A stretch of 28,479 bases of DNA, taken from IMG/VR virus record IMGVR_UViG_3300010316_000033, positions 1-28,479 of that record; one strand, 5' to 3'. Of the stretch, positions 173 to 24,179 are shown piece by piece (position 1 is the first letter of the stretch; each line of letters starts with the position of its first letter). Source of the DNA: a virus. The notes below the pieces were generated by a model. The model ran no database searches, was not told the origin of the DNA, and saw only the letters and a list, made by a program, of their open reading frames with translations. The position numbers and the translations under genes are program-made.

Positions 173-868
173 TTATTTTACCGCAATCGCCCCAACAAAC
201 ATGAAGTTCTGCCAGAACGGTTGTACGCTCTTGAAGCCCGCATCATAGATCATCTGTTCAAGTTCTTCCCAGGTGTTAGGTTTGAGCATGTTACGAAGTG
301 TAACCTCTTTGCCCATAATGTCAGCCTCAGAGAAAGACTTGCGTTTATAGTCATAGTACGTGAATGTCATCATGTCTTGAATACGTGCGTCTGTGGCCAC
401 AGTCTTCTCACCGAAGATGAATGCGCCGCCTTCGTTTAGACCTTCATAGATACGGTCAATCACTTCAGCACGGGCGTTACGTGGCATGAACTGTAGAGTG
501 AACAGAGATGTGACAAGACTTGCGTTTTGAATAATAGTGTCACGAATGTCTTCTTTCAGATATCTCACTGAAGTGCCAGGAAACTTATTCTCAACCTCCA
601 AAACTCTATTATTCATCGCATCTTCAAAGCCGTCTGCGATTTCAACGCCAATGTAGTTGCAGTATGGCGCAAACGAATAGTTTTGTTCAGCCATTGCTAG
701 AATGGTCTTGCCAGTGCTAGAGCCAATGTCATAGACAGAACTTTCATTGTCTACGAAGTATCTAGACAGTGATACTACATCATCATGTAGATTACTGTAC
801 CCTCGGATACTCATTTCAATGTGATTGTCAAAACCTTCTTCACGGTGTGCAAATGTAAAATCGTTCAT
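173..868 (-). CDS. cmoA: CmoA-like class I SAM-dependent enzyme (carboxy-SAM synthase family)
   Basis: 231 aa, against 247 for E. coli CmoA, which turns SAM and prephenate into carboxy-SAM for tRNA wobble modification. Resemblance runs end to end: GYSN (res. 23-26), the SAM-binding VYDIGSSTG (45-53), EDIRD (106-110), NASLV (115-119), FTLQF (123-127), YEGLNEGGA (141-149) and a C-terminal FW-x-N-F-M-F-x-G segment. These blocks separate CmoA from generic methyltransferases. In my recalled alignment the E. coli Arg199 that binds the carboxylate corresponds to Glu188 here, with Lys187 kept and Arg192 one helical turn on, so substrate use may be altered. The ATG overlaps the stop of the methyltransferase gene (ATGA), suggesting translational coupling. 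A consensus promoter lies 150 bases upstream. No cmoB is visible, so I infer a role with the adjacent DNA methyltransferase. Family call firm, reaction uncertain. Confidence 0.82.
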   Translation of the reverse strand: MNDFTFAHREEGFDNHIEMSIRGYSNLHDDVVSLSRYFVDNESSVYDIGSSTGKTILAMAEQNYSFAPYCNYIGVEIADGFEDAMNNRVLEVENKFPGTSVRYLKEDIRDTIIQNASLVTSLFTLQFMPRNARAEVIDRIYEGLNEGGAFIFGEKTVATDARIQDMMTFTYYDYKRKSFSEADIMGKEVTLRNMLKPNTWEELEQMIYDAGFKSVQPFWQNFMFVGAIAVK

Positions 869-4794: not shown

Positions 4795-5859
4795 TTATAA
4801 ACTAAGGGCTTCATTGTATAGACTTTGAAGGCATTTGTCAACCTCTTTTTTGTCAACCTTGACTTCCATAGATTCTACGTATTTTTTCAGAATGGTTAGT
4901 GTATCTTGTGCTTCGTCAACGATCTCTGAATCTTCAATCGCATCCATGTCAAGATGATCTTCAACAACCCTGATGTCAGCCGCATTACATGAATCTAGAC
5001 GATCCATAAAGATGTCAAACAGATAGGGGTTTGTTTTGTTTTTTACGATAACCTTGACATACGTACCCTCAAGACCCTCTAGATTTAGATTGGCGATTTC
5101 ATCAATAGTTAGATCGCTGTCTTCGTAATCAATCTTGTGGAACATGCGATACGGGTTTTCAATGAACTCCATCTTTCTTGTATTTGTGTCAAAGATGTGA
5201 AAACCTCTCTTACCTCCATGATCAGACCAGGTCATCTCATAAGGTGCACCCAGATACGTGATGTTAGAATGCGAAGACGGATGATGGAAGTGACCAGAAT
5301 AAACAGCGTCAAACTTGTTGAAAGACGATCTGTCTAACCCATGATCACACAGTTGACCTTTCATCATTTCATAACCAGAAATCTCAAAGTGACCCATCAA
5401 AATCTGTGCTTTTGTGTTATCAAACGCCTTCATTGTCACGTCATGATTAGCCTGACAAATCCAAGGTGAAAGCATAACTTTACACCCATCAAAGTCCAAC
5501 TCAACAGGCTCATGCTCATAAATGTGAATGTTATCATAACTCTTTCCATAAAGTTCTTTTACACCATTCACTTCGTTAGTGTTTTTATAGTAAGAATCGT
5601 GATTGCCTACAATCAAATGTAAATTCATGTCATTATCTTTTATCACACGCATGAAATGCTCTTCTAGTTTAGAAGAGGTGTGAAAGTTGACATACTTTCT
5701 TCTATCCAAGAGGTCTCCCAAATGAATAATAGTGTCAATGTCTCTATCTTTTAGAGTTGGAAAAAACACATTCTCATGAAAGTCAATAGCATTCTGTAAG
5801 AACGCTTTACTGTCCCCTCTCACACCCCAATGCGTGTCGGTGATAACTGCGATTTTCAT
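4795..5859 (-). CDS. gp47: gp47, SbcD/Mre11-like recombination nuclease subunit
   Basis: 354 aa (T4 gp47: 339). Calcineurin-like metallophosphoesterase partner of gp46. Metal-binding motifs in order: D-T-H at residues 8-10, GDLLDRR with Asp49, GNHD at 85-88, and the late GHF-x-HPS histidine cluster. The remainder forms the capping and DNA-binding part, with a C-terminal helical tail expected to contact gp46. The ATG overlaps the stop of the preceding 55-aa gene (ATGA). Its last codons contain a likely promoter for gp46. Confidence 0.95.
   Translation of the reverse strand: MKIAVITDTHWGVRGDSKAFLQNAIDFHENVFFPTLKDRDIDTIIHLGDLLDRRKYVNFHTSSKLEEHFMRVIKDNDMNLHLIVGNHDSYYKNTNEVNGVKELYGKSYDNIHIYEHEPVELDFDGCKVMLSPWICQANHDVTMKAFDNTKAQILMGHFEISGYEMMKGQLCDHGLDRSSFNKFDAVYSGHFHHPSSHSNITYLGAPYEMTWSDHGGKRGFHIFDTNTRKMEFIENPYRMFHKIDYEDSDLTIDEIANLNLEGLEGTYVKVIVKNKTNPYLFDIFMDRLDSCNAADIRVVEDHLDMDAIEDSEIVDEAQDTLTILKKYVESMEVKVDKKEVDKCLQSLYNEALSL
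4813..4841 (-). promoter_or_regulatory. Sigma70-like promoter for gp46
   Basis: Minus strand TTGACA (4841-4836), 17-base spacer, TACAAT (4818-4813), within the last codons of gp47. Transcription would begin near 4806, giving gp46 a short leader of about 25 bases that includes its AAGGAG ribosome binding site. Confidence 0.6.
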
Positions 5860-9473: not shown

Positions 9474-9502
9474 ATCTTATCACAGTTTATGGATAAAGTC
9501 AA
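9474..9502 (-). promoter_or_regulatory. Extended -10 sigma70-type promoter for uvsY
   Basis: Minus strand TTGACT (9502-9497), 17-base spacer, TAAGAT (9479-9474) preceded by TGA. The -35 overlaps the stop of the gp3-like gene. The CTGTGATA at the -10 region is shared with the gp55 promoter, which may mark a common class. Confidence 0.55.
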
Positions 9503-9987
9503 ATAAGTTTTACTACATATTTCGTGTATTTGAAAGTGATTGTTGTAGTTGGTGGGTTCACATCTGTCGCTTTTGTGTCAAGTGAAATGTCGCCAATACT
9601 TATCGGAAAGATGTCTTCAAACTGTATTTCAATGTTAGGATTTTTGTTGCTATTCATGATTGTGAGCGTAGCATCTGAGTACAGACCATCTTGACTTTTA
9701 CTCAGAGATTTGTATTCATCAAACCCATCTGGGCTAGTCAAACCTAGAAGCCAATGCCAAGTCTCTGTGTATGCTCTCATCTCTTCGTCAATGATCACTT
9801 CCAAAGAAAGATCGCCGTATTCAACTTTATCGCCGTGTCTAGGAATGTTTCTAAACGGAGCAGGTTGATTTGTTATACCAGAAGTGATGCCAGGAATGTT
9901 TAGTGATTGAATGTTATAGCTTACGTTCGGCAATCTCTTAACGGAGAATCGAAACTCTATAGGGGAAAGAAAGTTTAGATTTGACAT
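9499..9987 (-). CDS. gp3: gp3-like tail-tube terminator / tail completion protein
   Basis: 162 aa (T4 gp3: about 176). Expected to cap the head-proximal end of the tail tube. The layout is that of the gp19-fold tube proteins: an N-terminal strand pair, LNIPGIT, a region ending in VEYGDLSLEVIIDEEM, AYTETWHWLLGL, then SDATLTIM and IEIQFEDIFPISIGDISL with a final TTTITFKYTKY. Its place directly after gene 23 and before uvsY is where gene 3 lies in cyanophages. It could instead be another gp19 paralogue, such as a tube initiator. It has its own late promoter at 10020-10027, beyond the capsid-gene terminator. Confidence 0.68.
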   Translation of the reverse strand: MSNLNFLSPIEFRFSVKRLPNVSYNIQSLNIPGITSGITNQPAPFRNIPRHGDKVEYGDLSLEVIIDEEMRAYTETWHWLLGLTSPDGFDEYKSLSKSQDGLYSDATLTIMNSNKNPNIEIQFEDIFPISIGDISLDTKATDVNPPTTTITFKYTKYVVKLI

Positions 9988-16074: not shown

Positions 16075-16638
16075 TTAGCCCATGTTGTTAGCAGCACCAT
16101 TCAGGCCTGCTACGGTCCAGTAGTCGTACTGCCATGTAACGTCAAAACGTTCAATGTCGTCAGTAGTATCCCAATCCATCGCAATTTCAGCAACGTTAGA
16201 AGGATACAATCCGATAAATGTGTAGACCTTTAGCGCTCTACCATCTTTACCGTACTGAGTGATGTTCGCCTGTGACTTATATGTGGCTGGGCTTTGACCC
16301 GTTTCTCTCAAGTTAGCCTCGTGAGAATTGATTCTAGCCATCCAGTTTTCTACGTTATCACGAATAAGGAAGTCCTCATCGTTCATAACTGTTACAGACC
16401 ACTCACCGAACGTTCTGTCTCCAGCAAGTTTGATCTTTCTTCCGAAATAAGGAACTTCAATAGTTCCCATTTCAGAAGGTGGAAGTGTGGAAGCCTGAAT
16501 CAAAAACTGACCCTTGTTGCCTGCACCACCTACATCGCCTACACCTGTAGGCCATACAAGATCAACCTTGAATAGTGAGGCTTTCGCCCCACCAAACTGT
16601 AGACCTTCTGATTTGAATTCGTTGATGTTGAAAGTCAT
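16075..16638 (-). CDS. gp19: gp19, tail tube protein
   Basis: 187 aa (T4 gp19: 163). Forms stacked hexameric rings of the inner tail tube. The gp19 pattern is present: FLIQASTLPPSEMGTIEVPYFGRKIKLAGDRTF, then the hallmark WSVTVMNDEDF-x-I-R, NVENWMARINSH, and near the end IGLYPSNVAEIAMDWDTTD followed by FDVTWQYDYW. Follows the sheath gene after 26 bases that include AATAAATA (16666-16659), one base off the late consensus. Ribosome binding site AGGAG. Confidence 0.95.
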   Translation of the reverse strand: MTFNINEFKSEGLQFGGAKASLFKVDLVWPTGVGDVGGAGNKGQFLIQASTLPPSEMGTIEVPYFGRKIKLAGDRTFGEWSVTVMNDEDFLIRDNVENWMARINSHEANLRETGQSPATYKSQANITQYGKDGRALKVYTFIGLYPSNVAEIAMDWDTTDDIERFDVTWQYDYWTVAGLNGAANNMG

Positions 16639-21997: not shown

Positions 21998-22005
21998 TAT
22001 TTATA
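21998..22005 (-). promoter_or_regulatory. Late promoter TATAAATA for gene 14
   Basis: Perfect match on the minus strand. The stop codon TAA of the GIY-YIG gene (22003-22001) lies inside the promoter, so the homing gene ends exactly where the expression signal for 14-15-16-17 begins. Confidence 0.82.
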
Positions 22006-22714
22006 CCGTTTTTAGTTTACAATTATCAAAGTGCCAACGTGGCATTACTATGGCGTTACCTGTTTTGTTGCAATGTGGACAGGTTACATCTTCTCTTTTA
22101 TTTCTTTTATTTGCTTCTGATATTTTTCTACTAATTTCACGCTTCTGTTCATCAGTTCTATTAGCGTGCATTTTCTTTGCTTTATCCGAATAGTACTGTT
22201 TACGTTCTTCTTCAGTAAGTTTTTTCCATCTATCTTCTACAGGGAACTTTTTAGTCATAGTTTCCTTCATAGACTTTCTTCGCTTTTCAATAACTTCAGG
22301 ATCAGAGCTTTTATTATCTCTATTCTTCAATCCTTCTTCGTATTTTTTACGAACACCTGGGCGCTGCATAGCTTCTTTAGTTTTATGGCTAATTTTTTCA
22401 CGTATCGTTCTTACATTTTCAGGATAAGCTGACCAATGTTGTGTTGTGAATAATATATTGTAATATCTATCTTTATTTTTTTCTGCTAATTTTAACCATT
22501 CATTTTCAGACTCATATAGCTTAACTCTATCTTCATATACTACATCAACAATTCTTCTTTTAAAATCTTGTGGTCTTCTACGATAGGCATCTCGCATTCT
22601 GTTAGAAGAGCAAATATATCCATCATCTTCGGTACCCCAATGTGAACCGATATAATATAACTTTCTTCTTCTATCGTACCAGATATACACAAATCCATAT
22701 TTTTCTTGTTTCAT
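22001..22714 (-). CDS. GIY-YIG homing endonuclease with C-terminal zinc finger
   Basis: 237 aa. The GIY-YIG domain is at residues 1-95: GFVYIW (7-12), YYIGS (20-24), an Arg-rich helix and the catalytic Glu in YESENEW (68-73). A basic linker follows, with repeated ERRK/KEKIS-type segments like NUMOD3 DNA-binding modules. The C-terminus forms a zinc finger with C212, C215, H228 and C232. A free-standing homing endonuclease inserted between 13 and 14; the target is expected in the homologous 13-14 junction of phages that lack it. Its leader has a hairpin that hides the ribosome binding site in read-through RNA but not in RNA from its late promoter. Confidence 0.9.
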   Translation of the reverse strand: MKQEKYGFVYIWYDRRRKLYYIGSHWGTEDDGYICSSNRMRDAYRRRPQDFKRRIVDVVYEDRVKLYESENEWLKLAEKNKDRYYNILFTTQHWSAYPENVRTIREKISHKTKEAMQRPGVRKKYEEGLKNRDNKSSDPEVIEKRRKSMKETMTKKFPVEDRWKKLTEEERKQYYSDKAKKMHANRTDEQKREISRKISEANKRNKREDVTCPHCNKTGNAIVMPRWHFDNCKLKTV

Positions 22715-22764: not shown

Positions 22765-23508
22765 CTAGCCGATCATGTCGTGGACGGGAAGACTGTAGCT
22801 AGAAATCATGTCTTCTTCTAACTGTCTAATCTCTTCCCTTGCGTCTTGCAAAATCTGCTCTCCGTTGAATGTGACACCACCAGGTAACTGCATACCATTG
22901 AACTTCGTTAGGTTTGTCCCCCACTGATACTTGATCTTAGCTGTCGCATAGTTCTGTAACCAACGATCTTTCCAAACATCAGTATAAGTCGTGGGATCAA
23001 CAATAGAATAACACTCTGCTACAATGTAGCCACCTGTGTTTAGATTACCCCATTCTGTATCAATGTGCAGCTTGTTCACATGGCGATTGTATCTAATAGG
23101 CTGCATACCTGTTAGAATCTCTTCCATAAACTGAAGATGCTGCATTGACATGTAGAAGTGAATCAGATTATAATCCGACAACTCATGAACATGATTTAGA
23201 ATAAACTGGTACTGTGCGCCGAACATGTTATTAGAAAATGCAGCGGAAGATGATAGATTGAAAATGTTCACAACACCAATAATGTTTTCTGGTATTGTGA
23301 TGTAACCATTTTCTTTATCTGTGTCTGTAATCTGATGCTTCAGAAAGATTTTCTCGGTACCGTCAAAATGATAATCGTGCCAATAAAGTAATGCCTCATC
23401 AATTCTGTCTTCTATTTGATCAATATCGACATTGATTTCAATGACTGGTTTACCAAGTTTTCTAAGACACCATTCCCTGAACTGTTCGCGATTTGTCGGT
23501 AATGCCAT
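22765..23508 (-). CDS. gp13: gp13, neck / head completion protein
   Basis: 247 aa (T4 gp13: 309). Binds the portal after packaging and provides the tail attachment site with gp14. LRKLGKPVIEINVDIDQIEDRIDEAL (res. 15-40) matches LRRLGAPIINVELTPDQI of T4, YHFDGTEKIF is shared, and the C-terminal DRWLQNYATAKIKYQWG followed by MQLPGGVTFNGEQIL aligns with VKDYATALAKELNG and MMLPGGVTIDGQRL. The ATG overlaps the HNH stop (TAATG). A GGAAG lies before the start. Confidence 0.95.
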   Translation of the reverse strand: MALPTNREQFREWCLRKLGKPVIEINVDIDQIEDRIDEALLYWHDYHFDGTEKIFLKHQITDTDKENGYITIPENIIGVVNIFNLSSSAAFSNNMFGAQYQFILNHVHELSDYNLIHFYMSMQHLQFMEEILTGMQPIRYNRHVNKLHIDTEWGNLNTGGYIVAECYSIVDPTTYTDVWKDRWLQNYATAKIKYQWGTNLTKFNGMQLPGGVTFNGEQILQDAREEIRQLEEDMISSYSLPVHDMIG

Positions 23509-24179
23509 TACTGCTTCCTTTTTAGTCTACCAAAAGAAAATTCCTCTGGCTTGTTTTTGGGTAGATCAAATGTTTCTATGGATCCATTGTTGAACCATTT
23601 TTTACCACTCGGCCCCTTTGGTCTATTTTTAGACATTCTAAGTCTAGCTTCATCCGATTGACTTCTTCCTCGTATTTTGCTTAGACGCTTTTCTTTATGT
23701 TCTTCAGTCTGAGTTTTTCCAAAATGAGGAGAAAGCTCCCCCCTTTTACCCCACATCCCATTTCTTTTTCCGGCATGTGTTTTATTCTCTAATCTAGTCT
23801 TTGACATCTTTAGCTTTGAGTCTGCGGAATGCTTCAAATACTTTTTAACAGATTCGTATAGTTTTGAGTTACAGTATCTTTCATTTTTACCTTTCATACA
23901 CATTACAGCCCAAATCATTTTAGATTTTTTTTCTCCAGTTAGCATTTTTGTTAGCAGGATATGACAAACGAAATGTTCTCTGGCAGTCAGAAAAACTGTG
24001 TCGCTATCGTTTCCACCAAGAGATTTGGGGATATAGTGATGATTCTCAACATAAAAGTCAGCTGTTTTTTTACACCAATCTCTTTCAATAGCATTGTCAA
24101 CTATCTCAAAATACCATTTAGAGTATTTATTGTCTAGACACCATTCTGTAAACTCTTTTCTTGTAGTAGGCTGAGCCAT
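23508..24179 (-). CDS. HNH homing endonuclease whose N-terminus copies that of gp13
   Basis: 223 aa. HNH core: HHYIPKSLGG (res. 47-56), then LTAREHFVCH with His69 and His73; the middle Asn/Asp lies in GNDSD. The C-terminal half has NUMOD3-like DNA-binding repeats (GMWGKRGELSPHFGK, TEEHKEKRLSK, SDEARLRMSK). The first 15 residues, MAQPTTRKEFTEWCL, closely follow gp13's MALPTNREQFREWCL, and 11 consecutive bases (GAATGGTGTCT) are identical at the same codons. It takes the place directly behind the late promoter that would otherwise serve gene 13 and ends in a TAATG overlap with it. This suggests invasion of the start of gene 13 with duplication of its first codons. GAGGGGAAG is the ribosome binding site. 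Confidence 0.88.
   Translation of the reverse strand: MAQPTTRKEFTEWCLDNKYSKWYFEIVDNAIERDWCKKTADFYVENHHYIPKSLGGNDSDTVFLTAREHFVCHILLTKMLTGEKKSKMIWAVMCMKGKNERYCNSKLYESVKKYLKHSADSKLKMSKTRLENKTHAGKRNGMWGKRGELSPHFGKTQTEEHKEKRLSKIRGRSQSDEARLRMSKNRPKGPSGKKWFNNGSIETFDLPKNKPEEFSFGRLKRKQ

Follow-up and report, generated by a model that had tools for sequence, protein, structure and literature searches.

A CmoA-like protein encoded by a viral DNA carries a glutamate, Glu188, at the place of the arginine that holds the carboxylate of carboxy-SAM (Cx-SAM) in E. coli CmoA. This glutamate is a fixed feature of a cyanophage-type clade of CmoA proteins. By analogy with the homologous proteins of Synechococcus phage S-B43, the gene very probably encodes a phage Cx-SAM synthase that feeds a CmoX-CmoY pathway of DNA carboxymethylation.

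The DNA analysed, hereafter the window, is a 28,479-base IMG/VR virus record with T4-type genes (large terminase, portal, tail sheath, major head protein); it also encodes a late sigma factor and a UvsY-like protein. Its first three minus-strand genes encode the CmoA-like protein, a cytosine C5-methyltransferase (C5-MTase) and an asparagine-synthase-like protein (Table 1). Elsewhere in the window, the tail tube family PHROG 45 is matched by two different proteins (9499-9987 and 16075-16638), and the head-tail adaptor gene (22765-23508) is flanked by homing-endonuclease-like genes (22001-22714 and 23508-24179).

Table 1. Positions of the predicted carboxymethylation genes and of two codons of the CmoA-like gene in the window
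Feature	Position	Strand	Residues	Evidence or equivalence
CmoA-like protein, predicted Cx-SAM synthase, 231 aa	173..868	-	His16, Arg22, Tyr24, Leu122, Lys155, Lys187, Glu188, Arg192	TIGR00740 E 2.3e-37; phmmer to 4gek E 3.2e-30
Glu188 codon	305..307	-		Place of E. coli CmoA Arg199
Arg192 codon	293..295	-		Place of E. coli CmoA Glu203
CmoX-like DNA cytosine C5-carboxymethyltransferase (predicted), 407 aa	865..2088	-	Cys99 of SPPC; Arg380, equivalent to S-B43 CmoX Arg350	PF00145 E 2.1e-51; best PDB match 8yf3
CmoY-like ATP-dependent amide ligase (predicted), asparagine-synthase family, 268 aa	2097..2903	-		PF00733 E 2e-11

Glutamate 188 and the fold of the CmoA-like protein

In the structure described by Byrne et al. 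(2013, PMC3663124), Arg199 of E. coli CmoA, a dimer, forms a 2.7 Å salt bridge with the carboxylate. Its conservation was used there to separate Cx-SAM enzymes from ordinary methyltransferases, and Asn132 and Tyr39 were named as methionine contacts. Arg199 is also the only carboxylate contact given in the account of Kim et al. (2015, PMC4482062).

The sequence-only reading had set Glu188 opposite Arg199, noted Arg192 one helical turn later and proposed an alignment against CmoA as a check. With phmmer, the Glu188 helix stretch of the window protein was matched to the Arg199 stretch of E. coli CmoA (4gek) without a gap. The register was identical in an L-INS-i alignment and in a 74-sequence profile alignment, and Arg192 fell opposite E. 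coli Glu203. The replacement of the canonical carboxylate-binding arginine is thus borne out, as is the position of Arg192. The register can be regarded as fixed because the adjoining Lys187 (E. coli Lys198) is invariant, both in the nearest viral relatives (80/80, best 80 of 227 confirmed) and in the 121 thinned rows of the tree described below (121/121). A shift of the alignment by one turn or by a single residue was rejected: the sole nearby gap lies in the loop preceding the helix, and Lys187 sets the register. A random, private substitution or a sequencing slip was likewise rejected, since position 199 (E. coli numbering) is Glu in each of the same 80 relatives.

The AlphaFold2 model (monomer, ligand-free; mean pLDDT 92.9, pTM 0.90) has the CmoA fold, with a VIA-align Z of 30.4 to both 1im8 and 4gek (rmsd of 1.9 for 222 aligned in the case of 4gek). 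Tyr24, Asp47, Lys155, Lys187 and Arg133 are kept. E. coli Asn132 is replaced by Leu122, as it is by a leucine in S-B43 CmoA. The protein scores 129 bits with TIGR00740, below the equivalog cut-off of 193.3 bits. If CmoA is defined as in E. coli, by the salt-bridge residue Arg199, the window protein with its Glu188 falls outside the definition, and so does the proven S-B43 synthase. CysG, an O-methyltransferase, was found among the structural neighbours of the model; docking and a mutant are reported to show that an arginine in its first-helix region serves the substrate carboxylate (PMC11408123). We gave no weight to the parallel with His16 of the window protein because the equivalence is uncertain by one residue between the structural range and the HMM alignment.

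Distribution of the pocket residues among CmoA proteins

Three viral scans were examined through their best hits: the best 80 of 227, which supplied the nearest viral relatives, the best 80 of 468 and the best 80 of 192. Among the best 80 of 227, Arg22 (Pro37 in E. coli) was found in 80/80, while position 203 was Arg in 58, Lys in 13 and Gln in 9. Arg22 and His16 (Met31 in E. coli) are invariant in this type of CmoA, and Arg192 is not.

For a wider comparison, 273 of 274 hits were kept, one spanning no more than 170 positions being dropped. The resulting set of 209 rows consists of 203 distinct fetched proteins and 6 reference copies. Four class labels, defined after the columns had been seen, describe it: class I has Arg199 (95/209 rows); class II has Arg203 and no Arg199 (28/209); class III combines Arg37 with Glu199 (71/209); class IV has neither Arg199, Arg203 nor the Arg37/Glu199 pair (15/209). 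Glu199 is present in 71/71 of the Arg37 rows and in 0/137 of the Pro37 rows. All 99 rows of classes II and III have His31, and 109 of the 110 rows of classes I and IV have Met31, the remaining one having a gap.

A tree was built from 121 rows thinned at 80% identity, the four trait columns being excluded. Class III (SH-aLRT 93) and His31 each require one change on it, whereas class IV requires 13, of which 5 are forced by starred branches. As class III has a single origin, its rows are not independent evidence. If Arg199 is ancestral, the tree suggests one loss at the His31 split or close to it, and several further losses in other places. Within the Met31 branch, Arg199 is retained in 68/80 thinned rows and Asp62, Gly64, Phe137, Lys165 and Lys198 are each found in 80/80. 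Asn132 is rare, with 2/80 thinned rows on the Met31 branch, one of them E. coli, and 0/41 on the His31 branch. Position 203 is Arg in 37/41 and Lys in 2 thinned rows of the His31 branch, and Glu in 79/80 of the Met31 branch. The cellular control, a 96-genome draw from one bacterial phylum, gave eight proteins over the TIGR00740 cut-off, all eight with Met31, Pro37, Asn132, Arg199 and Glu203; CmoB was present in 6 of these 8 stretches. A CmoA 55% identical to that of the window was also seen in a 28-kb contig of a Chloroflexi MAG, perhaps a phage contig binned along.

Partners of the CmoA proteins were counted over the 203 distinct proteins, according to the C5-MTase in the fetched stretch; an earlier count was of 273 loci and was not deduplicated. 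The arginine that contacts Cx-SAM in CmoX is present in 54/54 partner C5-MTases of class III (15 of the 69 class III proteins had no C5-MTase fetched), 12/12 of class IV (3 without), 45/45 of class I (48 without) and 5/9 of class II (17 without), the other four having Gly. In Staphylococcus phage F1 (6461-7468 of its locus) and three viral contigs (L112, L113 and L114), the C5-MTase next to a class II CmoA has this glycine. Three phages, Alcaligenes phage Afa-NA1, Erwinia phage Yoloswag and Yersinia phage fHe-Yen9-02, have a CmoA with no annotated cytosine C5-methyltransferase in 5 kb flanks; a DNA (adenine) methyltransferase lies a few kb downstream and is a possible non-C5 user of Cx-SAM. 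Yang et al. (PMC12783734) report that their preliminary search gave no candidates for adenine N6 or cytosine N4.

Residues that may meet the carboxylate, and the DNA mark

Unlike that of the tRNA-type enzyme, the rebuilt product pocket would lack Arg199 and Asn132 and contain instead His16, Arg22 and usually Arg192; from the alignments, we infer that these three residues are the candidates for meeting the carboxylate. One possibility, doubtful but somewhat ahead of the next, is that Arg22, in the loop of residues 20-24 close to Tyr24 (E. coli Tyr39), enters the pocket, is held there by Glu188 and binds the carboxylate of the product or of prephenate. The two residues have opposite charges, Arg22 lies two positions away from a residue known to contact the cofactor, and the pair is complete in the best 80 of 227 viral relatives, while in the 209-row set Glu199 goes with every Arg37 and with no Pro37. 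Against this, class III arose once, as a single clade, so that the association counts as one event, and roughly twelve further columns are fixed in that clade as well. Moreover, a Paenibacillus plasmid CmoA, outside the row count, pairs Glu199 with Pro37.

The sequence-only reading had instead suggested that Arg192 could take over. The carboxylate-binding arginine would have hopped along the helix, with the Arg199/Glu203 pair of E. coli reversed. We consider this unlikely, slightly more so than a role of Arg22. It is in line with the prevalence of Arg203 on the His31 branch against Glu on the Met31 branch, and every class II row has Arg203 without Arg199, though Arg203 is part of the definition of that class. 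On the other side, the helix that carries Arg192 ends with this residue in the AlphaFold2 model, and 22 of the best 80 of 227 relatives have Lys or Gln; the 9 distinct Gln203 proteins all adjoin a CmoX with the Cx-SAM-selecting arginine (9/9). The presence of an arginine one turn later therefore stands, but its role as sole replacement is doubtful, and as a universal replacement it was rejected, given the variation at position 203.

An alternative also raised from the sequence is that another SAM derivative is made or used and that the DNA mark is something other than carboxymethyl. The loss of both Arg199 and Asn132 and the score under the equivalog cut-off are compatible with it, but S-B43 CmoA, a proven Cx-SAM synthase, has the same residues, the reading has already been refuted for that homologue, and the partner CmoX has Arg380, as do all class III partners at the equivalent position; we regard it as very improbable. 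It is equally improbable that the window CmoA is degenerate or non-catalytic and that Cx-SAM comes from the host or another enzyme: host CmoA can indeed feed S-B43 CmoX in E. coli (PMC12783734), but the window gene has an open reading frame, the retained Tyr24, Asp47, Lys155, Lys187 and Arg133, a fold predicted with high confidence and the same substitutions as the active S-B43 enzyme.

In the S-B43-type pathway that we favour, the window CmoA would use prephenate as the source of CO2 to carboxylate the methyl group of SAM, CmoX would transfer the carboxymethyl group to C5 of cytosine in DNA, and the CmoY-like ligase would most likely cap it with an amine, by homology glycine. Because the relatives share the glutamate and one of them is proven to make Cx-SAM, carboxymethylcytosine most probably remains the DNA mark.

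The distribution of Arg199 bears on the rule derived from it. The residue is often absent in phage enzymes, mostly together with Asn132, and is replaced by Glu in the cyanophage clade, by Ala, Ser, Gln and others in the Gram-positive branch, and repeatedly by Ala, Lys or Ser in the other branch. Since many phage CmoAs fail the Arg199 rule and yet adjoin Cx-SAM-selective partners, the rule would misannotate them. We tentatively propose, with rather less than even confidence, that Arg199 is dispensable for Cx-SAM synthesis and acts as a clamp on the product that suits tRNA modification, abandoned several times by phage CmoAs, which would hence release Cx-SAM faster; these enzymes would have to supply a DNA carboxymethyltransferase working genome-wide. 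According to Kim et al. (2015, PMC4482062), the low activity that E. coli CmoA shows in vitro is probably due to inhibition by its product, Cx-SAM, which is tightly bound. The tenfold higher kcat of S-B43 CmoA (below) may be a first sign of faster release, but because only two enzymes have been compared kinetically, and these differ at most positions, the loosened clamp is a hypothesis and not a result. The question raised is whether an enzyme that is slow and inhibited by its product becomes a fast supplier of donor once the carboxylate clamp is removed.

Comparison with known systems

With E. coli CmoA (4gek, 4iwn) and H. influenzae YecO (1im8), the window protein shares the fold, the SAM motif and invariant Lys and Tyr residues. 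It differs from E. coli CmoA by R199E, E203R, P37R, M31H, N132L and the deletion of one residue before the helix. Its neighbour is a C5-MTase and not CmoB. MccS and TglE are other known Cx-SAM synthases (PMC10491745).

CmoAs of phages and plasmids of Gram-positive bacteria (Staphylococcus phage F1, Paenibacillus pSC2 and others) resemble the window protein in having His31 and Arg203, in lacking Arg199 and in lying near C5-MTases, but unlike it they keep Pro37. Eight of the 56 plasmid records found had their CmoA proteins compared. Large plasmids of Brevibacillus, Paenibacillus, Aneurinibacillus and Jeotgalibacillus (L278, L280-L282) encode CmoAs with Gln, Glu or Asp at position 199 and Arg203, near C5-methyltransferases. 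In Paenibacillus pSC2, an IS200/IS605 tnpB lies between two pieces of the annotated C5-methyltransferase. A Burkholderia stagnalis plasmid encodes a CmoA-like protein (4983-5693 of locus L284) with Thr199 and Lys203 beside DUF692 and radical SAM proteins, perhaps a peptide natural-product cluster.

The closest known system is that of Synechococcus phage S-B43, for which CmoA, CmoX and CmoY were described by Yang et al. (Nat Commun, December 2025, PMC12783734); the CmoY-CmoX-CmoA system is thus already known. According to the main text of that paper, S-B43 CmoA makes Cx-SAM from SAM and prephenate with a kcat of 2.33 s-1, as compared to 0.23 s-1 for E. coli CmoA. CmoX produces 5-carboxymethylcytosine at GC motifs, its Arg350 contacting the Cx-SAM carboxylate (8YF3), and the mutation of Arg350 to Asn abolished activity. 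CmoY ligates glycine, and 5gcxmC is present in the phage DNA. A term search of this main text found R199 nowhere in it.

In the L-INS-i alignment, S-B43 CmoA (MN018232) shares with the window protein the Glu, the Arg at i+4 and the SIRGYSN loop, and the four pocket residues of the S-B43 type (His31, Arg37, Glu199 and Arg203, E. coli numbering) are all present in the window protein. S-B43 CmoA is thus a proven Cx-SAM synthase that lacks Arg199 in the same way. As in S-B43, the three gene families are clustered in the window. Its CmoX-like protein has 8yf3, S-B43 CmoX, as best PDB match (E 1.2e-110) and carries both the SPPC motif, its Cys99 matching Cys98 of S-B43 CmoX, and the equivalent of Arg350; its CmoY-like protein is an asparagine-synthase-like, AMP-forming type of ligase beside CmoA and CmoX. 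We infer from this analogy that the window proteins act as their S-B43 homologues do. Points against are the TIGR00740 score below the cut-off, the replacement of Asn132 by Leu122 and an identity of about 55% to S-B43 CmoA; for CmoX and CmoY, the identities are 50% over 396 columns and 45% over 266 columns. The transcribed gene order also differs, being CmoY-CmoX-CmoA in the window and CmoA-CmoY-CmoX in S-B43.
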